Virus record (IMG/VR): IMGVR_UViG_3300036985_004988
Location: 1-32,987 of that record
From: a virus
DNA: 32,987 nt
Strand: one strand, 5' to 3'
Positions 2,727-32,244 of this stretch are shown in pieces (within the stretch, counting starts at the first letter, position 1; every line of letters begins with the position of its first letter). A program made the position numbers and the translations under genes. The notes under the pieces were generated by a model. It saw nothing but the letters and a program-made list of their open reading frames with translations, was not told the DNA's origin and did not search any database.

Positions 2727-3343
2727 ATTGGCTTCTCCAGAATGGTCTCTAAGCGAACCTTACGAAACAGGTTCAGAGCTGAATCCATATTTGCGTTGAT
2801 GACTTCTACTTCCGGATAATCTCTCCAGAGGCTATCAGCTAGGTTAGCTATGTTTTCCATAAATACCTGGTAACGCATAGCTTTAGGACGATCCTTCTCA
2901 TTGATATGCCAGTTAGATTGACCACTGTTACCTAACTTCATATCAAATCCCAAGAGAACAATCTTCTTAGCTCCGAGATTAACTGCTAGATTAATGGCTG
3001 AAGCACCAGTGTTACAGAACCAACCTACCTTCGGAAACTTTTCCAAAGTCTTACCATTGACTCTCTCTAGCATGTGCACGGAGGGATCCTCAATGTACTT
3101 CAATGAACAAGACACGAGGATCCCTTCGTACAGTTTCAATCTCTCACGATGTATCATCCACCATGCATAATCGCCAAAGTAACATATTGGAACCAACTTC
3201 TCTCCCAATACGTAGGCATCATTACAGCCTATAACACACTTCCCTTTTAATGGTGTAAGATTTACACCACATAAACTGGGACCACCCCCAACTATGTAGA
3301 CAGTTTTACCTTTCCACCAATTGGGAGGGTTCCACCAGTTCAT
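2723..3343 (-). CDS. MptE-like / DUF115-type phage protein
   Basis: A 206-residue frame starting at ATG 3343, with GGAG about 10 bases upstream. It opens 'WWKGKTVYIVGGGPSLCGVNLTPLKGKCVIGCNDAYVLG', the nucleotide-binding 'GGGPSL' motif and following 'cNdA' of the MptE-like family, a Rossmann-type fold related to glycosyltransferases and pterin pyrophosphokinases. 'GWFCNTGASAINLAVNLGAKKIVLLGFDM' is the second typical block. Such genes are often found among phage head genes, sometimes annotated 'norphogenetic protein'; their role is not settled. It is coupled by ATGA to the sulfotransferase-like gene, suggesting the two act on one modification. Confidence 0.7.
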   Translation of the reverse strand: MNWWNPPNWWKGKTVYIVGGGPSLCGVNLTPLKGKCVIGCNDAYVLGEKLVPICYFGDYAWWMIHRERLKLYEGILVSCSLKYIEDPSVHMLERVNGKTLEKFPKVGWFCNTGASAINLAVNLGAKKIVLLGFDMKLGNSGQSNWHINEKDRPKAMRYQVFMENIANLADSLWRDYPEVEVINANMDSALNLFRKVRLETILEKPI

Positions 3344-3360
3344 GGAAATGACTCCGTGTA

Positions 3361-3816
3361 TTACTTCTGACGACGAGTCTTCTTGGCTTCCTTCTTGACT
3401 CGTTCTCTCTCAGCTTTCGCCTCTTCCTTCTTCTGCTTCTCTTCTTCCTGGGCAAGCTTCTCAGCTTCCTCAGCATCCTCAATTGCCTTTTCGTTATTCG
3501 ACAGGACCAAGTCAGCTTCGTCTTCTGTCAGAGGCTTCGCATTGACACAAACCCCAGTGGCAACGTTGATGACATCAAAGGTACCATCACCCTTGCTCAC
3601 CTTCTGGAGTTCCAAAGGAACATAAGGAGCAGGTGCTTTCTTCTCTTCCTTCTTGTCATCATCCTCATCCACAACAGGAGCCTTGTCCGTGACAAGCTTC
3701 TCAAACCTACCACGGAAGATCTCCGGAAGGTTTCTGCTGGAACTTACGATGTCCCCTTTCTTGAACTGCTTACCCTCTTCGTCAACATACTTACCAGACT
3801 TGAGTACAAACTTCAT
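3361..3816 (-). CDS. Small virion-region protein with charged C-terminal helix
   Basis: A 151-residue protein. I start it at the ATG at 3816-3814 because AAGGAG lies 9 bases upstream; a GTG two codons earlier is only 3 bases from that site. The N-terminus (MKFVLKSGKYVDEEGKQFKKGDIV) looks like a small SH3-like beta domain. The middle contains an acidic/Lys linker with Pro, and the last 60 residues are a Glu/Lys/Ala-rich stretch likely to form one long helix. It follows the capsid gene and may be an accessory head protein. No family is recognised with confidence. Confidence 0.75.
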   Translation of the reverse strand: MKFVLKSGKYVDEEGKQFKKGDIVSSSRNLPEIFRGRFEKLVTDKAPVVDEDDDKKEEKKAPAPYVPLELQKVSKGDGTFDVINVATGVCVNAKPLTEDEADLVLSNNEKAIEDAEEAEKLAQEEEKQKKEEAKAERERVKKEAKKTRRQK

Positions 3817-3906: not shown

Positions 3907-4896
3907 TTACGAGTAGTGTACGATACCGCACCGCTGCTGGAAGTCAGATCTCAGCTGCGGAACCATGATGGCCATTACCTTGTAATGATGAACCATGCCA
4001 CCTTCACTGTCCCACTCAACGGTCGTAACTGGCATACCCTGAACGAGCCGAACGGTCTCGGAGTTCATTTCCACCAGCAACGCACGCGTTCCGGTCAACT
4101 TGTCGATGACCTTGATATCCTGAATACCTGCAACTTCCAGGATACGCTGCCGAATGGTAATCACGCGACCACTCGACGTATCATAGTCCTTGTCCATCGC
4201 AACTTCAAATGCGGTGGGGATGTAGAGAACCCAGGGACCATAATGACGATCATTGATACTGGCCTGTTTCATCGCCAACACATCCGTCAGGATATTGGCA
4301 CCAGTATCCGTTGCCCACGACGTACCAATTGAACCCAGATTTGCATCAGGGAAATCGGTATAGCCGTATATCGTACCACCACCGAACGAGTAGGAGCTGT
4401 AACCCATGAACAGAATTTCTTCTGCGAGTTCTGCAACCTTACGACCTGCACGTTCCGCCATCGTAGTGTCCAAGGGATCGCCCGTCGTACGCGAGGCAGC
4501 GAGGCTGCGTGCGTTGATCGTGTAATCCGCATGGATGATTGGCAGAGGGAGGTATCTCAACGTCCACTCAGGCCTATCACTACGACCGCGAGTTATCGCA
4601 TCCATGGACAACTGCGCCGAAAGAGGATCCGACTCCTCTTCGTATTCCAGAACGGTTTTACCCATTCCGTTTGTGATGCTGTACGTCAGACCCCTGCTGA
4701 TCAGGTCCGCAACACCCACGAGCCTCTGCTGCGCAGCCTTCACAACGGCCACGTCGTACTGCTTCCACTCATCCTTGCGGAGAGTAGCGCATGTCCTCAG
4801 CGCATTGATATTCATTCCACTGCGTTGAAGACGCTGGGCCACGGAGCCAAACGCTCTTCCACCGTGAATGAAATCGATTCCTGCATTTATCTTCAT
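3907..4896 (-). CDS. Major capsid protein (HK97 fold, encapsulin-like family)
   Basis: A 329-residue frame with ATG at 4896 and a purine-rich GAAGGGAAAAGGAA ribosome binding site. The order of segments matches the HK97-fold capsid family that resembles encapsulins: an N-arm, a 'LRKDEWKQYDVAVVKAAQQRLVGVADLISRGLTY' spine-helix block, 'RSDRPEWTLRYLPLPIIHADYTI' (the P-domain strand with 'lPlp..h.df'), 'ERAGRKVAELAEEILFMG', a 'GYTDFP' turn and the A-domain 'HYGPWVLYIPTAFEVAMDKDY' plus C-terminal 'QLRSDFQQRCGIVHY'. It follows the decoration protein gene. It forms the icosahedral shell; no N-terminal delta domain is present because scaffolding is fused to the protease upstream. Confidence 0.88.
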   Translation of the reverse strand: MKINAGIDFIHGGRAFGSVAQRLQRSGMNINALRTCATLRKDEWKQYDVAVVKAAQQRLVGVADLISRGLTYSITNGMGKTVLEYEEESDPLSAQLSMDAITRGRSDRPEWTLRYLPLPIIHADYTINARSLAASRTTGDPLDTTMAERAGRKVAELAEEILFMGYSSYSFGGGTIYGYTDFPDANLGSIGTSWATDTGANILTDVLAMKQASINDRHYGPWVLYIPTAFEVAMDKDYDTSSGRVITIRQRILEVAGIQDIKVIDKLTGTRALLVEMNSETVRLVQGMPVTTVEWDSEGGMVHHYKVMAIMVPQLRSDFQQRCGIVHYS

Positions 4897-9333: not shown

Positions 9334-9402
9334 ATCGTGTGGGTTCCTATAAGACTGTAATTAAGCCTTGTTACGGCTAATTTATGCAGGAACCCACACG
9401 AT
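9334..9402. promoter_or_regulatory. Long perfect inverted repeat with nested hairpin
   Basis: Two 15-base arms (ATCGTGTGGGTTCCT at 9334-9348 and its exact complement at 9388-9402) flank a 39-base loop that itself contains a small hairpin (AATTA-GCC / GGC-TAATT, loop TTGTTAC). It fills the gap between the secreted-protein gene and the protease/scaffold gene. No T-run follows on the minus strand, so it does not look like a classical terminator. It may be an RNase processing site, an mRNA stabiliser, or a regulator binding site. Confidence 0.6.
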
Positions 9403-15333: not shown

Positions 15334-16887
15334 CTAGTCTGAACCCCAGACTCCTACCTTCTTCTTGTCGCTCTTCACTGCCAACTTGTTATAGGCACCA
15401 CTGGTTCCATCAACCTTATCCTTAAACTTACCTCTTGGAAAGTAACGCATCTCGTCTACGTAAGCTTTCGTCCATGGGCGAATGAGAACAGCAACGTTGC
15501 CTATGTATACTTGTGCAGAAAATGGTTCTGCTCGCTTTTCTTTACTGCCCTGACCACTCACACCATCCATGAATGCAGAGTACCCATCCAAGTTTTCAAC
15601 AGTACGCTCTGCGGATTCCTTACCACCACTGCCTGGTTCCTTCTCTGTCCAGACCGTAACTGCTTTTCCATCCATTTCTGCAGTGTCCTTAATGGTCTGT
15701 TCTCGCTGACCATGAGACCACTGCCCAGCAATGACGTCTGCAACGATATACTTGAAAGGACCTTGCTTCAACTTGTGCATCAGCACACCAGCCGTGAAGC
15801 ACCCACCACCAGTTGTCCCTGCCTTGTCCCAGTAACGGACACTCTTCTCTATCCATCGTTCATTGAAAGAATGCACAAGCACAAGATTGTCAACAGGAAT
15901 CATTGCTCCTTCACGTGGAACAGGACGCTGCTGTAATTGACCAGCAGAAGCATACGGACCTAACTCACCCTCCAGAGCCTTTAGTTCTACTTCTCCATAA
16001 CGCTCTGGGCAAAGAGGCTCTCCTTCTACTGTACGAGGATCCTTGAACTTCAATGGAGAGAGTGTTCTGTGATCGTTCCTTTCATACCTAGCAGGTAGAC
16101 AAAGAATATTCCATCCAGAATCCTTAGACAACACATGTCCTGCCAGATCCTCCTCATGCGAGCGTTGCATGATAATAAGGTAACGTCCCGTCTTGGGATT
16201 GTTCAGTCGTGTAGACATGACTTCATCCCACCAGAACAAAGTAGACTTCCTGTAGTTGTCGCTCTCTACCTCTCTTACGTTGTGGGCATCGTCTACAACA
16301 ATGATGTCACCACCTTCCCCAGTATTAGCACCGTTGACTGAAGTAGCAAGACGCACGCCTCCACGATTGTTAGCATACTTTACTTTGGTGTTCTCGTCAC
16401 CCAGGATTTCCATCCCTGGTTGGTAACGATTAACCAATCCCTGATATCGTTGTGACTGCAGAACACGACGACACTTAACGCTATCTCTTATGGAGAGAGT
16501 AGCTGCATAAGAAGAGAATAGCCAACGCAAACTAGGATATCTCAACCATCCATAAGATGGCAACATAACAGAAGAAAGCAAAGACTTAGTATGCCTAGGA
16601 GGCAGGTTGATAACCAACTTGCGAATCTGTCCTTCCAGTAATGCCTGTAAATGATCACAGACAGCATCCACGTGCCAACCACCAATATATGGGTCAGACT
16701 CTACAGTAGACCACATATAAGGTACATAATCACGCATGCTGCGGAAGGAGAGCTCTTGGTCTATTGTTTCCGCCGGAGGTAAGTTCTCCAGTAACGTCAA
16801 TAGCTCCCTGTCCGATTGCTGCTTCTCGTAATCCCTTTCTAATAATATCGCGGAGGGTGACAAGTTCGGTTCTCCCCAGTTTTCCAA
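15334..16887 (-). CDS. terL: Terminase large subunit
   Basis: 517 residues. ATPase part: Walker A-like 'PPRHTKSLLSS' (about 96-106, Lys101), 'WLFSSYAATLSI', Walker B 'DIIVVDDAHN' (194-203) and coupling 'YLIIMQRSHEEDLAG'. The nuclease part starts at 'RYWDKAGTTGGG' (Asp354). It cuts concatemeric DNA and drives it into the head through the portal. The start is uncertain: the longest frame begins with TTG at 16887 and overlaps terS by 158 bases; the first ATG, at 16737 (residue 51), overlaps by 8. The family's usual N-terminus extends above that ATG ('TIDQELSFRSMRDYV'), so an upstream start, such as the TTG at 16797 behind AGGGAG, is likely. The gene ends where the portal ribosome binding site begins. 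Confidence 0.9.
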   Translation of the reverse strand: MENWGEPNLSPSAILLERDYEKQQSDRELLTLLENLPPAETIDQELSFRSMRDYVPYMWSTVESDPYIGGWHVDAVCDHLQALLEGQIRKLVINLPPRHTKSLLSSVMLPSYGWLRYPSLRWLFSSYAATLSIRDSVKCRRVLQSQRYQGLVNRYQPGMEILGDENTKVKYANNRGGVRLATSVNGANTGEGGDIIVVDDAHNVREVESDNYRKSTLFWWDEVMSTRLNNPKTGRYLIIMQRSHEEDLAGHVLSKDSGWNILCLPARYERNDHRTLSPLKFKDPRTVEGEPLCPERYGEVELKALEGELGPYASAGQLQQRPVPREGAMIPVDNLVLVHSFNERWIEKSVRYWDKAGTTGGGCFTAGVLMHKLKQGPFKYIVADVIAGQWSHGQREQTIKDTAEMDGKAVTVWTEKEPGSGGKESAERTVENLDGYSAFMDGVSGQGSKEKRAEPFSAQVYIGNVAVLIRPWTKAYVDEMRYFPRGKFKDKVDGTSGAYNKLAVKSDKKKVGVWGSD

Positions 16888-17548
16888 GATCTAGTTCATG
16901 CCGATGATGCACGTCCACTTGCCCGGAAGTCTCGACGATTTGCCTATGTATATTCTTCCACCGTACAGGATCCCTGTTGCACAACCAGAAGATTGTAGCG
17001 ACAATGTTTGGAGGGATCCTGTGGGTTTTGGTTGTGCGCTTGACTGCTGGGATTCGTATCTTGTTTCCTTTTGCGTCTTCTGCTTTGACAGTGATGGTTG
17101 AAACAGTTTCGGACTTATACTCGTATCCGGTAGCTTGCCTAGAGAGGGAATGAGCAACTCTGTTAGTGATGTAATTCTCTCTAGCATTTTTAACTGCTCC
17201 CCTAAAGCGGGCAAGGAGCTCTCTGTACCGCACAATCCTAGCAACTTCTTCTGAGGACCTGCCTTGCATGTACTGTGATGCTGGATTGAGGAGGATATCT
17301 GTTTCGGGATCTTCTCCCATCCACTTATCAATGGTACTAGCGCCAACTCCGAGAAGCTTAGCAAGTTCTTTGTTGGTTGCTCCTGTAATTGTGCAAAAGT
17401 GTTTAGCTTTAGCAATGTAGCAACGTTTGAATTTACCAGTAGCAGGATGGGAGTGTTCGGGGTCATTGGATCTGACTATGCCTCTTTTGGTAATGTGTGT
17501 CCCGTACTCTCTTCCAGTATGGTTATCTGGATGGAGTGTTCTTCGCAT
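16730..17548 (-). CDS. terS: Terminase small subunit
   Basis: 272 residues, ATG at 17548. Residues about 42-75 form a helix-turn-helix of the terminase small-subunit type ('AKHFCTITGATNKELAKLLGVGASTIDKWMGEDPE'), and 'RIPPNIVATIFWLCNRDPVRWK' near residue 190 is the usual oligomerisation-end phrase of this family. It binds the packaging site and hands DNA to TerL. The N-terminal 40 residues are His/Arg-rich. No good ribosome binding site is seen for this ATG (CCCTCC lies there), so translation may be coupled to the gene that ends 10 bases upstream. Confidence 0.82.
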   Translation of the reverse strand: MRRTLHPDNHTGREYGTHITKRGIVRSNDPEHSHPATGKFKRCYIAKAKHFCTITGATNKELAKLLGVGASTIDKWMGEDPETDILLNPASQYMQGRSSEEVARIVRYRELLARFRGAVKNARENYITNRVAHSLSRQATGYEYKSETVSTITVKAEDAKGNKIRIPAVKRTTKTHRIPPNIVATIFWLCNRDPVRWKNIHRQIVETSGQVDVHHRHELDLGKLGRTELVTLRDIIRKGLREAAIGQGAIDVTGELTSGGNNRPRALLPQHA

Positions 17549-17557
17549 GGAGGGTTA

Positions 17558-17902
17558 CTACCTTTTGTTGTTGGCTTTGAATGGTTTTGCTGGTTCAGAG
17601 AGCTTTTCTTTTTCAGCAGGGACTTCTTTGACATTGGGGACATATGTGGCTTGATTTCCATCTACACGGAAACGAATGGGAAGGATACGGGGATCTGGAT
17701 GGGTGAATACAATGAAGACAACCTGAATCTGTGGATCTGTTTGGGTAGAGATTGTCAAGCGAGTGTCTCTTAGGCATTGGGCTAACGTTTGCATTGAGGA
17801 TCCTTTCGGTTGAGGAGCAGCGTTGCTTACTGTGAGGACGACCAACCATATCAACACTATTACACCTACGCAGGAAACAGTGAATCGTATATCCTTGTTC
17901 AT
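17558..17902 (-). CDS. Small membrane-anchored or exported protein at the head of the left arm
   Basis: A 114-residue frame with ATG at 17902 and CAGG upstream. Residues 8-28 ('TVSCVGVIVLIWLVVLTVSNA') form one membrane segment or signal anchor; the C-terminal two thirds are polar, with 'LAQCLRDTRLTISTQTDPQIQVVFIVFTHPDPRILPIRFRVDGN' and a Lys/Pro/Glu tail. It is the first gene of the leftward operon. A spanin, holin partner or envelope protein are all possible, but no family is recognised. Confidence 0.6.
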   Translation of the reverse strand: MNKDIRFTVSCVGVIVLIWLVVLTVSNAAPQPKGSSMQTLAQCLRDTRLTISTQTDPQIQVVFIVFTHPDPRILPIRFRVDGNQATYVPNVKEVPAEKEKLSEPAKPFKANNKR

Positions 17903-17924
17903 GATAATACCTGTTGATTAAAGT

Positions 17925-17992
17925 GTCGGCTGATCAACACAGACGAGTGAATCACAGACAAGTGAAATAACTCCCGCAATTGATCAGCCGAC
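17925..17992. promoter_or_regulatory. 13-base inverted repeat upstream of the leftward operon
   Basis: GTCGGCTGATCAA (17925-17937) and its exact complement (17980-17992) lie 42 bases apart, just upstream of the first leftward gene. Each arm contains TGATCA. Candidates are an operator pair for a regulator controlling the left arm, or a large hairpin in the 5' leader of that mRNA. No recognisable leftward sigma70 promoter was found by eye in 17903-18120. Confidence 0.5.
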
Positions 17993-18127
17993 GTTTCCCG
18001 GAACTGATGCTATATACAACCCTATCACGACGTCACTCTACATCAAATTGAGCTATATTGTATACCCTTTGCCAGGCAACCCGAGAGCTACGGGCAAATA
18101 TAGGTTAAGATTGTATCAGTTGCTTGC

Positions 18128-18156
18128 TTTACATGTAATACAGCAGGGTGTATAGT
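18128..18156 (+). promoter_or_regulatory. Sigma70-type promoter facing right
   Basis: TTTACA (18128-18133), a 17-base spacer and TATAGT (18151-18156) form a near-consensus promoter. The predicted start is near 18163. It is the best promoter seen in the divergent region and would transcribe the gene-free stretch that follows and possibly the whole right arm. Confidence 0.6.
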
Positions 18157-18162
18157 GTCTGC

Positions 18163-18785
18163 AGTTCTTTTACATAGTGGGTTCAGGCGGTACGAAGTAC
18201 TTGAAGACGGCAGTGATGAGAGCGGAAGTAGGAGCCGACCGAAGTTAGGAAGGCCACAGTAATCCGAAGCCGATCACTAGGATCAAACGATCGATGCCCA
18301 GAGTGAAGGAAAACTGGACCCATAGGTGGATACCGAGGATAGGGATCGAAATCACGGAACACGGTAATCAATGGGAAGAAGTGTTGGCGAATCCAACACC
18401 ATGCCCAATTACAAGTTGATGGAAACGAAGTGAATTAGGTGACCCTCTTGGTGGACAAATCCACTTGTGAGTTCCACGAGGAACAGTTGAGACATTCGAA
18501 GAAAATGTTTCCAACGCAAGCAAGCCACAGTTAGCCAAACAAAAGTTCATCTACGGATGACAATCCAAGCTACTGTGAACACTTCGCCGACGGATACGAA
18601 TGTTAAACTGTGGAACGCTAGAACTGACTACATGCCATGGGTAACGGCTATCAGGAATCAAGCAAACTAAACCGTGAGGAAGTTTGTCTGAGATTGGCCT
18701 GGTGGTGGTCGTCCAGTCAGTCTTTGAGAATCCTTTTCTTTTGTTAGTTCCGACGGGAGGCGGTAATCCTCCCCCAATTTATCTT
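18163..18785 (+). ncRNA. Candidate large structured non-coding RNA
   Basis: About 620 bases without a plausible gene, downstream of the 18128 promoter. Perfect stems seen by eye: AGTGAT/ATCACT (18212-18217 with 18273-18278); GTGTTGG/CCAACAC (18381-18399); GTGGA/TCCAC with a CAAA loop (18451-18464); GTTCC/GGAAC with an ACGA loop (18471-18484); CCACAGTT/AACTGTGG (18525-18532 with 18606-18613), which encloses TCATC-UACG-GATGA (18547-18560, a classic cUACGg tetraloop) and AACA(c)TTCG/CGAATGTT (18578-18604); and CAAACT/AGTTTG (18663-18686). CGAA occurs repeatedly in loops. It ends at the GGGAGG/CCTCCC hairpin (18755-18773). Size, phage context and density of stems suggest a ROOL- or GOLLD-class RNA, but I cannot confirm a family by eye. 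Confidence 0.55.
18755..18773 (+). terminator. Hairpin at the end of the candidate ncRNA
   Basis: GGGAGG (18755-18760) pairs with CCTCCC (18768-18773) around CGGTAAT, followed by CCAATTTATC. There is no run of T, so it may mark a processed 3' end rather than a terminator. The 18786-18920 stretch after it holds no gene I can support. Confidence 0.35.
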
Positions 18786-18924
18786 GCTAGAACTACTCCC
18801 ATTCAACAAGGAAAGGAAAGGAGGCTTCCATGGAGCGACGATAGTGTTGCCAAATGGTGGTGACGTCCCACTAACAATAGCAACATGACAATAGCCTATC
18901 ACTTCAATCTTTTACAACTTAAAA

Positions 18925-18960
18925 GGTAGGGTGAAAGTCCCTACCCCAATTTATTGGGTA
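18925..18960 (+). promoter_or_regulatory. Two mutually exclusive hairpins in the leader of the right arm
   Basis: Hairpin A: GGTAGGG (18925-18931) with CCCTACC (18939-18945), loop TGAAAGT. Hairpin B: TACCCCAA (18942-18949) with TTGGGTA (18954-18960), one bulged C. They share 18942-18945, so only one can form at a time. The layout is that of an attenuator or switch 52 bases before the first gene. Hairpin A is followed by CCAATTTAT, as is the 18755 hairpin. Confidence 0.45.
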
Positions 18961-19012
18961 CGAGTATCAGTTGGTCAACGGACAAAGTAACAAAGTAACA
19001 AGGAGGATGAGG

Positions 19013-19258
19013 ATGAGGACAAAGATTCATTTACTGAACAATAAGGTTCTTGGGGACATTCGGGAGAACCTTGGTGCTAAAAGCAGTACTGATACAAGTA
19101 AGGATCACCTGATTGAAAGAATGAGTGCACGGGAACTGTTCAATGAATATCTTCTGTGGAATGGTATCATTGGATACACGGACTCCATTCTCCTTGCGGT
19201 TGAAAATACAAACGACGCTTCTGGATGGGAAGATTCAAGCAAGGATAATTTTAAGTGA
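19013..19258 (+). CDS. Hypothetical protein, first gene of the right arm
   Basis: 81 residues from ATG at 19013, chosen because AGGAGG (19001-19006) lies 6 bases upstream; another ATG at 19007 directly abuts that site. The protein (MRTKIHLLNNKVLGDIRENLG...) is soluble and mostly helical, with 'HLIERMSARELFNEYLLWNGIIGYTDSILLAVE'. I do not recognise the family. It is the first of a series of short genes that are probably early functions. Confidence 0.8.
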   Translation: MRTKIHLLNNKVLGDIRENLGAKSSTDTSKDHLIERMSARELFNEYLLWNGIIGYTDSILLAVENTNDASGWEDSSKDNFK

Positions 19259-19302
19259 TCACTTCGTTCAAAAATCAAACCAAACAAAAGGAGGACAGGA
19301 CA

Positions 19303-21252: not shown

Positions 21253-21465
21253 ATGATAGCGAAACAATACACAGTAATGGCAGTTCCTGGTATCACAGTG
21301 AACGGACAATGTCTTCTCACTATCGGTGAAGTGATACAAGTTGGAAATGGTCCAAAGCGATTCCGACGTGTTCCAAAGCAAATCGTCTCCGAGTACAGGG
21401 ACGAAGTAGTAAGGGAGGCTCAGAAACTTCAAGCCTTGGAAAACGAGTTGACAAAGGGGATCTGA
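21253..21465 (+). CDS. Hypothetical protein
   Basis: 70 residues, ATG at 21253 behind AAAGGAGTACAAC. It has an N-terminal beta region ('YTVMAVPGITVNGQCLLTIGEVIQV') and a C-terminal helix ('SEYRDEVVREAQKLQALENEL'). Its stop overlaps the next start by one base (TGATG). No family is recognised. Confidence 0.7.
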   Translation: MIAKQYTVMAVPGITVNGQCLLTIGEVIQVGNGPKRFRRVPKQIVSEYRDEVVREAQKLQALENELTKGI

Positions 21466-21614
21466 TGAAGATATACATCTACGACTGGTTAGTTACAATG
21501 TCTGATGGTACTTTGAAAATAGTATCAGCAGACAGGAGACGTAGGGCATTGATATATGCCAACGTCACCTTTATGGAAAAGCATGGTAGGGTGAAATCCC
21601 TAAGGAGAATGTAA
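21465..21614 (+). CDS. Small basic protein, coupled to its neighbours
   Basis: A 49-residue frame (MKIYIYDWLVTMSDGTLKIV... ending RRM) that starts inside the stop of the previous gene (TGATG) and ends one base before the next start. The tight fit on both sides makes it a real gene although it is short. Its last codons hold the AAGGAG used by the next gene and the hairpin TAGGG-TGAAAT-CCCTA (21587-21602), which shares GGTAGGGTGAAA with hairpin A at 18925. Function unknown. Confidence 0.65.
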   Translation: MKIYIYDWLVTMSDGTLKIVSADRRRRALIYANVTFMEKHGRVKSLRRM

Positions 21615-21615
21615 T

Positions 21616-22230
21616 ATGTCTATGGGGAAACTTCCAAACACCAGGAAGAAAACTGTGGATGAGTGTGTGGTCGTTATGTTTATTCTGGTAATAGTGTACT
21701 TCATTGCTAGTGATATAGCGACGAGGTATGTCTATAGCAGAATGAGACCTACTCAACCACAGAAAGCGTATTGGATATACCAAACGCCGCAAAGTGAAAA
21801 GATCAAAGTAAAAATATACAAGGAGAAACCAGTGAAACCTGAAACAGTAGCAAAGGTGATTGTAGCAGTATGCTTCGTTGAAACAGTAGCAAAAGTGATT
21901 GAAGCAGTATGCTTCGTTGAAAACCAAACAGGAAATCCAACTCTGTTAGGTGATGGTGGGGATGCTGTAGGTGTTCTCCAGATCCACACTGAAATGGTTG
22001 ATGAGTGTAACAGGATTATGGGTAAAAAGGTCTGGGGCTATGCAGACAGAAACGATCCTGTTAAGTCGCGAGCAATGGCCTGGTGCTTTTTCAACCATAG
22101 GCAAAATCATTATGGTCTTGGAGACGAGCTAGATGAACAGATACGCCTTGGTGGTCTGTGGAACAAGCCAAATGGTACTGCGAAAGCGGACTACCTAAAC
22201 AAGGTTAGAGTTGCTCTGGCTATGCTGTAA
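21616..22230 (+). CDS. Membrane-anchored lytic transglycosylase-like protein
   Basis: 204 residues, ATG at 21616, with AAGGAG inside the previous gene. Residues 18-34 ('VVVMFILVIVYFIASDI') form one membrane anchor; a Pro/Lys linker follows. About 89-200 resembles transglycosylase/lysozyme-like domains: 'AVCFVENQTGNPTLLGDGGDAVGVLQIHTEMVDECNRI' gives a candidate catalytic Glu102, a glycine loop and 'G-x-L-Q-I-H', followed by 'ADRNDPVKSRAMAWCFFNHR'. Such an enzyme cuts peptidoglycan glycan strands. A 39-base in-frame tandem duplication lies just before Glu102. The gene is in the early arm, not next to other lysis genes. Confidence 0.65.
   Translation: MSMGKLPNTRKKTVDECVVVMFILVIVYFIASDIATRYVYSRMRPTQPQKAYWIYQTPQSEKIKVKIYKEKPVKPETVAKVIVAVCFVETVAKVIEAVCFVENQTGNPTLLGDGGDAVGVLQIHTEMVDECNRIMGKKVWGYADRNDPVKSRAMAWCFFNHRQNHYGLGDELDEQIRLGGLWNKPNGTAKADYLNKVRVALAML
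21841..21918 (+). repeat. Tandem 39-base in-frame duplication
   Basis: Two direct copies (21841-21879 and 21880-21918) match at 37 of 39 bases. Each encodes a 13-residue unit, E-T-V-A-K-V-I-x-A-V-C-F-V, with V or E at x. The unit repeats the helix that ends at the candidate catalytic Glu102, so Glu residues recur at 76, 89 and 102. The near identity at the DNA level shows it is recent or kept by gene conversion. Confidence 0.95.
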
Positions 22231-23981: not shown

Positions 23982-24168
23982 TCCTAAGAAGACCAGTCTA
24001 TGGTCTATTAGAGGTATGAGTCGAAGTACGAGGAACATGTTTGTGGGACAATGCAAAACAGAAGGGATGAAGGTTGCAGAACTACTCGAGTTCATATGTC
24101 TCAAATACGTGAGAGAGAAAAGAGTGGGTCCAGATGACAAAACAACAGTTCACCCAACTATGGGATGA
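23962..24168 (+). CDS. Small RHH-like protein
   Basis: 68 residues from ATG 23962 (MQKKSVSPKKTSLWSIRGMSR...), behind AAGAGGATA; an ATG at 23920 lacks a ribosome binding site. 'WSIRGMSRSTRNMFVGQCKTEGMKVAELLEFICLKYV' has the strand-helix-helix rhythm of ribbon-helix-helix DNA-binding proteins. It overlaps both neighbours and lies just before the sigma-like gene, so it may be a regulator. The family match is weak. Confidence 0.55.
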   Translation: MQKKSVSPKKTSLWSIRGMSRSTRNMFVGQCKTEGMKVAELLEFICLKYVREKRVGPDDKTTVHPTMG

Positions 24169-24709
24169 TCATGAACGTCTTATTGGTAGCCGTATCAGTA
24201 AGATGTCCAGAATGACAGGCTACGAAAGCAGTGATCTGAAATCCGTTGCCCATGATTCTTTCATGAAAGCATGTGAATCATGGGATAAGGAGCGACCCTA
24301 CGGTACGTGGGTATTTCGGTGTGTGACTAATGCACTGATAGACCACGTCCGTAAGTTCGACAGGCCTCCTGCTGATGAGACTGCCATAACGGACCTTTTG
24401 GAAATATCTGACAAAGGTCAGCTACATCCTAGTGTCCGTATGATATTCTTAGAGGAGCTGAATGGGTTGTCCTGTGAAGCTCTCTTTGTAGTTGGTCTGG
24501 CATTGTCTGGAGAATTGTCCAGACTAGTTACAGACAAGGTAGAAGAAAGGATCACACCAAAATCAGCAAGAGGAATAATTAAGACATTCCTCGTTAAGCA
24601 CCTTGGTTGGAAAACCGTAAAAGTCTGGTTAGTGTTTGGGGAATTGCGTGACTTCCTGAGAAGGATACAAGATGAGAAAAGGAAAGCCTACTATAAATGT
24701 TGCTATTAG
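24134..24709 (+). CDS. Sigma70 region 2-like protein
   Basis: 191 residues, ATG at 24134. Residues about 12-76 read as sigma region 2: 'LWDDHERLIGSRISKM', 'SSDLKSVAHDSFMKACESWD' and 'YGTWVFRCVTNALIDHVRKFDRPP', the last matching the -10 recognition helix (f..W...v..N...D..R). The C-terminal half does not show a clear region 4 (-35 recognition) helix-turn-helix. It could steer host RNA polymerase to late phage promoters. It overlaps the genes on both sides by 35 and 38 bases. Confidence 0.65.
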   Translation: MTKQQFTQLWDDHERLIGSRISKMSRMTGYESSDLKSVAHDSFMKACESWDKERPYGTWVFRCVTNALIDHVRKFDRPPADETAITDLLEISDKGQLHPSVRMIFLEELNGLSCEALFVVGLALSGELSRLVTDKVEERITPKSARGIIKTFLVKHLGWKTVKVWLVFGELRDFLRRIQDEKRKAYYKCCY

Positions 24710-26300
24710 CGAAGACAGGTTAAACATCAAGTTCCCATACAATCGGTTCTTGATGTTTGCCTGTCGTCGGCTTTCCGGATGTCGCTATCACTCAGATAAG
24801 CGATGTTGGTCAGCAGACCTAACAGCAAATAACATCAACAAAATACGGCTATGGAAATATGCCGAAGTAAAGGAGACAGAAGATGTCGATGCCTATGCGC
24901 CAGTGGTGCAGTCGGTAAAGAAACTTCGATACCCACCTGTTCGTATTGACAGCATAGAAGGACTACGAGGAAAGCTGTATCCATTCCAGCATAAGGGAGT
25001 GGAGTTCCTAGAGTCCAGAAAGGGACGAGCTCTTCTTGCAGATGAAATGGGTCTTGGAAAAACCGTTCAGAGTATAGCCTATCTTCAATTGCATAAAGAG
25101 CTTCGTCCTGCTGTTATTGTAGTCCCTGCTAGTATTAAGATCAAATGGAAAAGGGATCTACACAACTGGATGCTTCCTAAAGAGAAAGTAAAAGTTCTGT
25201 CAGGTAGAAAAGGTCTCTCAAAGAAACTGAAGTGTTCAGTAGCTATAGTCAACTACGACATTCTGTCTGGATGGAAAAGGGAACTGAAGAAGTTCAGGCC
25301 AAAAGTAATCATCATAGATGAGTGTCACTACATCAGCAATCCAAAAGCCAAGAGGACTGCTGCTCTCAGAGGAATAGCCAGGAAGGCAGCCCATGTAATT
25401 GCATTGTCTGGAACCCCTATAGTGAACAGACCAATGGAGTTCTTCAATGTCATTCACATGATAGAGCCAAGGCTATTTCCAAGTCACTGGAAGTTCATCC
25501 AGAAATACTGTGACGCTACATGGACTGGGTATAAGTGGGACTGCTCTGGAGCCATCAATACCCAAGAGCTTCATCATATCCTCAAAGACAGTATCATGCT
25601 GAGGAGACTGAAAAAGGATGTTCTCACTCAGTTGCCTAGAAAAACTAGGACAGTAATTCCTGTGACTATAGACAATAGAGAAGAGTATGAAGAGGAAGAG
25701 GAACGATTTGCCAATTGGGTAAATGACAATCCAAGGGAAAAGTCAGCGATTGCCTTGGCCAAAACAGAAAGGTTAAAGCAAGTTGCTGTTGCCGGCAAGA
25801 TGAACACTTGCCTAAACTGGATTGCAGACTTCTTAGACAGTGGACAGAAGCTTATTGTGTTCTCTACGCACCGATCTGTCTCTATCCAAGTACATGACAC
25901 GTTCAAACAGTCTGTCATGGTTATTGGTGCCGTAGGGAAAACTCAACGACAAGAAGCCATCGATTCTTTTCAGAAGGATGATAATGTTAGACTATTCGTA
26001 GGAAGTGTCAAAGCTGCTGGAGTGGGTATTGATCTTACTGCGGCAAGTAACGTTTGCTTCTTGGAAATGGGATGGACACCTGCCGACCATGACCAAGCGG
26101 AAGACAGAGCTCACAGAATAGGTCAAACAAATGCAGTAAATATCTGGTACTTGGTGGCCAATGGAACCATCGAGAATAAGATACTTACTCTACTGGACAA
26201 GAAACGTTCTGTACTGGATCAAATACTGGATGGAAAAGTGGATGGTCATTCTTCGTTGCTACGAGACTTACTAAAAGAATACAGAAAGGAGCATAGGTGA
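24672..26300 (+). CDS. SNF2-family DEAD/H-box helicase
   Basis: 542 residues, ATG at 24672. It has all SNF2 helicase signatures: 'LLADEMGLGKTVQS' (Walker A, Lys130), 'VVPASIKIKWKRDL' (Ia), 'VIIIDECHYI' (II, 213-221), 'ALSGTPIVNRPMEFF' (III), 'LIVFSTHRSV' (IV), 'VGIDLTAAS' (V) and 'QAEDRAHRIGQ' (VI, 475-485). The domain order and the N-terminal YPFQ motif (103-106) resemble the SMARCAL1-like phage proteins that remodel forks or anneal strands. It likely acts in replication or recombination together with the primase and DnaB-like genes downstream. Confidence 0.9.
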   Translation: MRKGKPTINVAISEDRLNIKFPYNRFLMFACRRLSGCRYHSDKRCWSADLTANNINKIRLWKYAEVKETEDVDAYAPVVQSVKKLRYPPVRIDSIEGLRGKLYPFQHKGVEFLESRKGRALLADEMGLGKTVQSIAYLQLHKELRPAVIVVPASIKIKWKRDLHNWMLPKEKVKVLSGRKGLSKKLKCSVAIVNYDILSGWKRELKKFRPKVIIIDECHYISNPKAKRTAALRGIARKAAHVIALSGTPIVNRPMEFFNVIHMIEPRLFPSHWKFIQKYCDATWTGYKWDCSGAINTQELHHILKDSIMLRRLKKDVLTQLPRKTRTVIPVTIDNREEYEEEEERFANWVNDNPREKSAIALAKTERLKQVAVAGKMNTCLNWIADFLDSGQKLIVFSTHRSVSIQVHDTFKQSVMVIGAVGKTQRQEAIDSFQKDDNVRLFVGSVKAAGVGIDLTAASNVCFLEMGWTPADHDQAEDRAHRIGQTNAVNIWYLVANGTIENKILTLLDKKRSVLDQILDGKVDGHSSLLRDLLKEYRKEHR

Positions 26301-30526: not shown

Positions 30527-30598
30527 ATCGGGCGAATACCGTAGAACATATTGTTGGGTTTAGTGTAGGTAAAACAAAGTAACAAGGAGGAAGTGGTC

Positions 30599-31729
30599 AT
30601 GGGAAGTAAGAAGTCAAAGGTTGAAGTGGATGAGAAGGATCTGAAAGCTGCTGCGAAGGATATCAATGCGGTATTAGGTCCCGATCCCAAGATCGATCTG
30701 AAGCAGGGAGCCAAGGGTTTGGAAAAAGAAATCCGAACCATGGCTGAAGAGATCAAGTCGGACGATAAGTTGTCGAAGGAGACTTTCAAACTCCTGAAGG
30801 ATCTCGGATGCGCTCCTGAGGAAGATACGGGTACGGATGATGAGGATGAAGACGAAGAGGATGAGGATGAAGTAGAGGAAAAGAAGTCTTCCAAGCAAAA
30901 GAAGTCCAAGGATGAGGATGAGGACGAAGATGCTGATGAGGAAGACGAAGACGAAGAGGAAGAGGAAGAAGATGAGGATGAGGACGAGGAGAAGTCTTCC
31001 AAGAAGAAAAAGTCCAAAGATGAGGACGATGAAGAGGATGAGGAAGAGGAAGATGTAGACGAGGACGATGAGGATGAGGATGAGGAAGAAGAGAAGCCTT
31101 CCAAGAAGTCCAAGAAGTCCAAGTCTGATGATGAGGATGAGGAAGAGGACTCGGATGAGGATTCCGAAGAGGAAGACGAGGACGAAGAGGAAGATGCAGA
31201 TGAGGACGAGGATGAGGAAGAGGACGAGAAACCTTCAAAGAAATCCAAGAAGTCCAAAGATGCAGATGAGGACGAAGAGGAAGAGGAAGAAGAGGACGAA
31301 GAGGAATCAGACGAAGATGAGGACGAGGACGAAGAGGATGATAAAAAGTCCAAGAAGTCCAAGAAGTCTGATGAGGAAGACGAGGACGAAGAGGAAGAGG
31401 AAGAAGAGGACGAAGAGGACAAGGGTGAGGACAACAAAAAGGAGGGTAAAGTGAAGAAGGGAAAGAAAGAGAAGAAAGAGAAGAAGGAAAAGGGTGGTAA
31501 GGAGAAGTCCTGCTTTGGTCATAGGGCAAGCGGGATGGGTGGAATGATCGATGGTCTTGTCAAGGAAGGAACTACCCTGAAGAGTGCTGTTAAGGCATTG
31601 GGCAAAGCATTCAAGGGTAAGTCTGCGGAAACCCTGGCAAGCAAATTCGAGAAGCATGTCAAGCATCTCGAAGCTGACTGTGATGTGAAGGTCAAGATCT
31701 CTGACTCGGGAGTCTACAAGGCCAAGTAA
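30599..31729 (+). CDS. Very acidic protein with lysine islands and a shared C-terminal domain
   Basis: 376 residues from ATG 30599, behind AAGGAGG at 8 bases; a GTG at 30593 is too close to that site. Three parts: an N-terminal helical domain (1-75); about 200 residues that alternate between Asp/Glu runs and short islands such as KPSKKSKKSK; and a C-terminal domain (306-376) that matches the C-terminal domain of the protein at 20263-20652. The middle looks like a disordered charge-patterned region that could mimic DNA, bind basic proteins or phase-separate. It is the last gene before the tmRNA. No family is known to me. Confidence 0.8.
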   Translation: MGSKKSKVEVDEKDLKAAAKDINAVLGPDPKIDLKQGAKGLEKEIRTMAEEIKSDDKLSKETFKLLKDLGCAPEEDTGTDDEDEDEEDEDEVEEKKSSKQKKSKDEDEDEDADEEDEDEEEEEEDEDEDEEKSSKKKKSKDEDDEEDEEEEDVDEDDEDEDEEEEKPSKKSKKSKSDDEDEEEDSDEDSEEEDEDEEEDADEDEDEEEDEKPSKKSKKSKDADEDEEEEEEEDEEESDEDEDEDEEDDKKSKKSKKSDEEDEDEEEEEEEDEEDKGEDNKKEGKVKKGKKEKKEKKEKGGKEKSCFGHRASGMGGMIDGLVKEGTTLKSAVKALGKAFKGKSAETLASKFEKHVKHLEADCDVKVKISDSGVYKAK

Positions 31730-31861: not shown

Positions 31862-32216
31862 GGGGATGTCGGGTATCGACTGGTTAGTAGTAATTATATT
31901 GGCATGCGGTGGTTGATCGGTGGCCACCTTAAACTCCGATCAAAAGCGAACTGACGAAGTCCGCGAACTCTTGGCTGCTTAATTGCACCAATAGGAACCC
32001 GGAGAGGTATGGTTAGTATCCGGTAGTACGACTCTTACCAACTAGATCCCGGTAGTCGCTCCGGTTATAGTGCGACTTGCATAGTGGTTGCAAACTAAAC
32101 ATCCACTTGGTGGAGGGTACACTTAGTACCCCTAGTTGCTGGACTTAAACCAGACAAGCATGTAGAAGATATAATGGCTCTTTCACAGGACGGGAGTTCA
32201 ACTCTCCCCATCTCCA
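31862..32216 (+). ncRNA. ssrA: Transfer-messenger RNA (tmRNA)
   Basis: 355 bases (E. coli: 363). The 5' GGGGATG pairs with 3' CATCTCC as the acceptor stem (31862-31868 with 32209-32215). The T arm is GGGAG-TTCAACT-CTCCC (32192-32208). The 5' domain has GGTATCGAC and GGCATGCGG as expected, PK1 uses GATCGG/CCGATC (31915-31920 with 31936-31941), and the 3' part holds AAGCATGTAG and GGACGGGAGTTCAACTC. The tag frame runs in the phase ...GAC GAA GTC CGC GAA CTC TTG GCT GCT TAA (31953-31982), ending in ELLAA, with resume codon near 31950-31953. CCA is not encoded (ACA follows the acceptor). tmRNA frees stalled ribosomes and tags the unfinished protein for proteolysis; no smpB was seen. Confidence 0.9.
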
Positions 32217-32244
32217 CATTATCATAAACCAAAAAGGAGTACGT

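Follow-up and report, generated by a model that had tools for sequence, protein, structure and literature searches.

We tentatively read the sequence from position 18163 to about 18800-19012 of an environmental phage as a long and in part structured 5ʹ leader of a rightward early operon, a reading that we prefer and rate as somewhat short of probable. The window analyzed comprises 32,987 bases and corresponds to a linear viral record. A gap of about 1.1 kb (17903-19012) lies in it between the leftward terminase and structural genes and the rightward early genes, and neither the sequence nor the list of ORFs gave a credible gene for this gap (Table 1). The finding, a stretch of about 600 bases at 18163-18785, is placed inside the gap. 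A preliminary description of this DNA had proposed a large structured non-coding RNA there, with its own promoter and no credible gene. The last point held: when ORFs of at least 40 aa with common start codons were listed, those overlapping the stretch reached 62 aa at most.

Table 1. Coordinates of features in the window and of the conserved element in four related loci.
Feature	Position	Strand	Remarks
Major-capsid-like match	3907-4896		
Portal and head proteins		-	
TerL	15334-16887	-	
TerS	16730-17548	-	
Sigma70-like promoter TTTACA-17-TATAGT	18128-18156	+	10 of 12 positions
Non-coding stretch, presumed transcribed leader	18163-18785	+	ORFs of at most 62 aa; z of the fold between -1.62 and -0.92
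Predicted multibranched sub-domain, closing helix CCACAGT/ACTGTGG	18254-18613	+	z and entropy compared with shuffles
Predicted long imperfect rod, apical hairpin GTGTTGG-CGAAT-CCAACAC (18381-18399)	18321-18469	+	
Predicted second rod: CTGACT/AGTCAG, GCTATCAGG/CCTGGTGGT, GCAAACT/AGTTTGT	18624-18720	+	helix probabilities 0.87, 0.96, 0.95
Hairpin GGGAGG-loop-CCTCCC, then CCCAATTTAT	18755-18773	+	6 pairs, loop 7
Hairpin GGTAGGG-TGAAAGT-CCCTACC, weakly terminator-like	18925-18945	+	two overlapping matches (shuffled mean, 1.6)
First early gene, 81 aa	19013-19258	+	AAGGAGG Shine-Dalgarno upstream; no Pfam match
Small genes right of the gap		+	
Helicase	24672-26300	+	
DnaB-like helicase		+	
Conserved element with covarying hairpin	L019:3382-3449, L021:4933-4993, L030:4817-4879, L037:4312-4374	reverse strand of each locus	

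The promoter was also present as described, and it is the sole plus-strand promoter match from 17901 to 19013. Against the leader reading, promoter matches occur at the frequency expected by chance (3 promoter-like sites in 17550-19300, with a mean of 2.5 in shuffled sequences). No terminator-like site was found between this promoter and 18925, so the gene at 19013 is most simply read from 18128, and the simplest account of the structured stretch is that it forms the leader of the rightward operon, as four relatives described below suggest. A strong terminator was not found at the 3ʹ end of the stretch (18785) either. The hairpins at 18755 and 18925 have an identical 11-base tail, CCCCAATTTAT.

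If the stretch is transcribed, as we infer, host RNA polymerase would start at the 18128 promoter, traverse the folded region and continue into the small genes from 19013 on; the 3ʹ end of such an RNA and any function in cis are likewise putative. The folded leader would most likely act in cis, on polymerase read-through, on message stability or through processing to a shorter RNA. A further point against this reading is that other promoter types may be used, because the phage encodes a match to sigma70 region 2. This match, at 24134-24709 on the plus strand, scores 24.8 bits, barely above the Pfam cut-off of 24, and a relative of the protein is carried by the locus L008. At 18820-18844, a Shine-Dalgarno-like GGAGG is followed by a four-codon ORF (ATG GAG CGA CGA TAG), which by its sequence is a possible leader peptide or minigene.

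One argument for the leader reading came from the sub-domain 18254-18613. Its pairing entropy was 0.50 on the plus strand, against 1.04 on the other strand and 0.995 in shuffled sequences (0 of 40 as low), and its fold energy gave z values of -3.0 (0 of 80 shuffles) and -3.78 (0 of 100 shuffles). The sub-domain had been picked after folding, and as a correction the best minimum-energy domain was taken in 65 other tiles; 63 of them had a domain, and in 11 of these 63 it was as low as or lower than the -4.0 of the finding. On a fixed grid, the plus-strand tile at 18181 ranked 27th of 364 in entropy. The plus-strand fold is well defined, in about the top 7-20% of the window and no more. The main helices of its long rod mostly have mean pair probabilities of about 0.9-1.0, with two at about 0.5-0.6. 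The region 18600-18790, where the second rod lies, gave a z of -0.92.

Two helices named in the preliminary description are present as sequence. CCACAGTT (18525-18532) has its complement in AACTGTGG (18606-18613), and the UACG hairpin can be formed by TCATC-TACG-GATGA at 18547-18560. A preference for the named stems, however, was not confirmed: in minimum-energy folds, the partner of 18607-18613 is CCACAGT at 18254-18260, and that of the inner CACAGT (18526-18531) is ACTGTG at 18572-18577. Competing copies are available to these helices, CCACAGT at 18254 and 18525 and ACTGTG at 18572 and 18607. The UACG hairpin appeared in two predicted folds and was absent from a third, for which a slightly longer stretch was used.

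Taken as a whole, the stretch beats shuffled sequences in fold energy only mildly, with z values of -1.62, -1.21 and -0.92 in three runs (2 of 20, 5 of 60 and 8 of 40 shuffles as good, respectively). We compared it with a grid of 360-nt tiles, 364 in all (182 places on both strands), which have a mean z of -1.17 in the window, against -0.64 in 60 tiles from six relatives. The best plus-strand tile of the finding had a z of -2.25 (rank 77 of 364) and was outscored by an antisense tile over the gap (-2.65, rank 56 of 364). Both the unexceptional fold and the better antisense tile count against the leader reading. Five hairpins with at least five pairs were counted in the stretch, where shuffled sequences had a mean of 2.3 and 17 of 300 reached five; the same number was reached by 16 of 108 window tiles, one of which (18301) is within the finding. 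The exceptional helix density that had been claimed was not confirmed, as hairpin counts, fold z and domain scores are all ordinary for the window's own tiles. Neither helix density nor fold energy was accepted as an argument for an ornate RNA, since better folds are found in coding tiles of this window and since a genuine ROOL RNA does not stand out either. Folding of the gaps of nine relatives on both strands gave mixed results without a clear trend. Elsewhere in the window, very stable predicted RNA folds overlapping ORFs were seen at 3061-3420 (minus strand, z -7.2), 21421-21780 (plus strand, z -5.7) and 24661-25020 (plus strand, z -5.6), none of them equaled in 100 shuffles.

Fold energy close to background is also what could be cited for a role of the stretch as DNA, in which a divergent control region with promoters and operators, perhaps a packaging site or a replication origin beside the terminase genes, carries an incidental RNA fold. 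The gap borders directly on the small terminase gene and on a small ORF, it holds promoter-like matches on both strands, and a perfect intergenic 13-bp inverted repeat in it, at 17925-17992 (spacer 42 nt), surrounds a pair of near-copies of a 15-base repeat. This inverted repeat is, however, outside 18163-18785, origin-type repeats were not seen within the stretch, the three families of direct repeats reported being of 15-16 bases with 73-93% identity, and the well-defined fold is limited to one strand. We consider a role as DNA rather doubtful.

The stretch had also been likened to ROOL and GOLLD, which PMC12286853 describes as RNAs encoded by phages, without a known function and frequently located close to tRNA islands, with ROOL forming a homo-oligomeric RNA cage. 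Membership in either family found no support. When Rfam was searched with curated and permissive thresholds, a tmRNA at 31862-32219 was the sole match in the window, and the gap had no credible one. Run singly, neither the ROOL model (RF03087) nor the GOLLD model (RF02032) gave a window match reaching the gathering score; the ROOL model detected the known ROOL of the control plasmid pMP118 at 130.4 bits, and the GOLLD search was without a positive control. ROOL resembles the stretch in being phage-coded, about 570 nt long and multidomain, and their fold statistics are similar: the RNA strand of pMP118 ROOL, folded alike, had a z of -1.19 and an entropy of 0.82, beside -0.92 and 0.90 for 18163-18785. 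Since ROOL is equally unremarkable in fold energy, this measure speaks neither for nor against an ornate RNA. The stretch differs from ROOL in having no model match, no tRNA island and no conserved relatives, and from GOLLD, likewise a large structured phage RNA, in having no match to its model in that uncontrolled search.

These comparisons bear on whether the stretch is a free-standing structured RNA of about 600 nt, belonging to a new class, ending near 18720-18785 and acting in a ROOL- or GOLLD-like way. Its size, its multidomain predicted fold, its own promoter and fold statistics near those of genuine ROOL agree with this idea. We nevertheless think it unlikely, given that ROOL, GOLLD and other Rfam matches are missing, as is a strong terminator at the end, that its helix density does not stand out in the window, that no relatives and hence no covariation were found, and that ARAGORN detected no tRNA island in the window, which may be a fragment, but the tmRNA alone, 13 kb from the stretch. 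A new large RNA class is possible, though no positive support for it was obtained.

The phage-coded tmRNA scored 88.1 bits with its Rfam model, and the tag predicted by ARAGORN, APVIVRLA, is unusual. In 16 relative records, the tmRNA model gave matches at E ≤0.001 in three and matches over the cut-off in none; the control matches archaea too.

Relatives of the stretch itself were not found in the collections searched, which is a further point against the leader reading; near-identical records may be missing from these collections. The gap had no blastn match among phage and plasmid records, and megablast of 8000-32987 likewise gave none. A scan of viral contigs with the single TerL sequence found four distant relatives, and scans with TerS and the helicase found none. 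A scan with a TerL alignment gave 576 relatives, and the best 80 of the 576, which were kept, are at most 55% identical over long matches and 58% in one partial match; a later alignment scan with one genome per species gave 59 loci. Neither blastn nor nhmmer found a convincing copy of the stretch in the best 80 loci or in the 59 genome-record loci. Gap lengths were looked at in 51 of 84 loci, plus the window.

Three exact DNA patterns from the stretch occurred in 41, 28 and 5 viral contigs. The loci with these patterns showed no clear further similarity to the stretch: nhmmer gave no match at E ≤10, and the best blastn match (E 0.066, 45 bases, in L157) was distant from the pattern match of its locus. 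When the stretch was compared with 39 whole records of TerL relatives, 15 of them had a match at E ≤10, and the best match, with E 0.0035 over about 27 bases, was taken as chance.

The stretch might also be what is left of one or several small early genes that have decayed, in line with its lack of detectable relatives in the blastn search of phage and plasmid records. The early region is made of small genes, and nine of the ten small ORFs tested, one upstream ORF among them, had no Pfam match. Compact phage genomes, however, seldom retain remnants of 600 bases, and we regard such an origin as very improbable.

Support for the leader reading came from four TerL relatives. The loci L019, L021, L030 and L037 have a common non-coding core, CCCYGACAGG...CAAGA on the early strand, upstream of terS. 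The element sits between terS and the early genes, and its place and strand match those of the window's stretch. A scan with the core found seven records, which were copies or near-copies of the four types. At 16-23 bases past the core there is a hairpin with similar loops (ACTGA, TATTGA or ACTGG) and quite different arms; its own arms pair at 6, 5, 7 and 6 positions and swapped arms at 1 to 4. This apparent covariation, seen in four distinct sequences and without statistical proof, is suggestive, and we treat the element as a candidate structured RNA family. In the locus L037, 4203-4213 and 4300-4310 are also complementary to each other over 11 bp. At 309-533 bases downstream of the core start comes the first ORF of at least 25 codons that is preceded by a Shine-Dalgarno sequence. 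In L019, a promoter sequence, TTGACA-18-TATACT, matches 11 of 12 positions 192 bases upstream of the core; before the core, L030 had only 9/12 matches, and L021 and L037 had none. Rfam gave no match at the gathering score in these four loci and none over the core at E ≤1 in L136, L137, L138 and L140.

The element is like the stretch in place and strand, in a presumed non-coding leader ahead of small early genes, but differs from it in that the window holds no match by sequence or by model. The profile m0 of the element had no match in the window at E ≤10. The best window match of the model R1, with E 0.9, was outside the gap, in a weak test, as R1 captured little of the structure, having been built on an RNAalifold structure in which the covarying hairpin keeps only three of its pairs. 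The plus-strand-specific sub-domain, the absence of a gene and the structured element that four relatives have at this place make it plausible that a structured, untranslated RNA is transcribed from the 18128 promoter. The covarying element is a concrete candidate and is more readily testable than the window's own stretch.

PMC9378689 describes HK022 putRNA as a structured antitermination leader of about 70 nt with two stem-loops, which lies just downstream of an early phage promoter and acts on the polymerase. The stretch would resemble it as a structured RNA just 3ʹ of an early phage promoter, putative here, and differs from it in being about 600 bases long and in that any function is putative. 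If the stretch is a functional RNA, long structured leaders would head the early operon of phages in a little-studied lineage, and different members of this lineage would carry different leader RNAs. A bolder proposal is that a new class of large, multidomain phage RNA is seen here for the first time, and that phages of this terminase lineage habitually have a structured RNA, drawn from several unrelated kinds, where the terminase genes meet the early genes. This seems to us distinctly unlikely; if true, this border would be a hot spot for large phage RNAs.

Other repeats were seen elsewhere in the window. A second perfect intergenic inverted repeat, of 15 bp with a spacer of 39 nt, is located at 9334-9402. 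The ORF at 30593-31729 contains a long array of degenerate GAGGATGAGGAAGA-type repeats (30848-31440).
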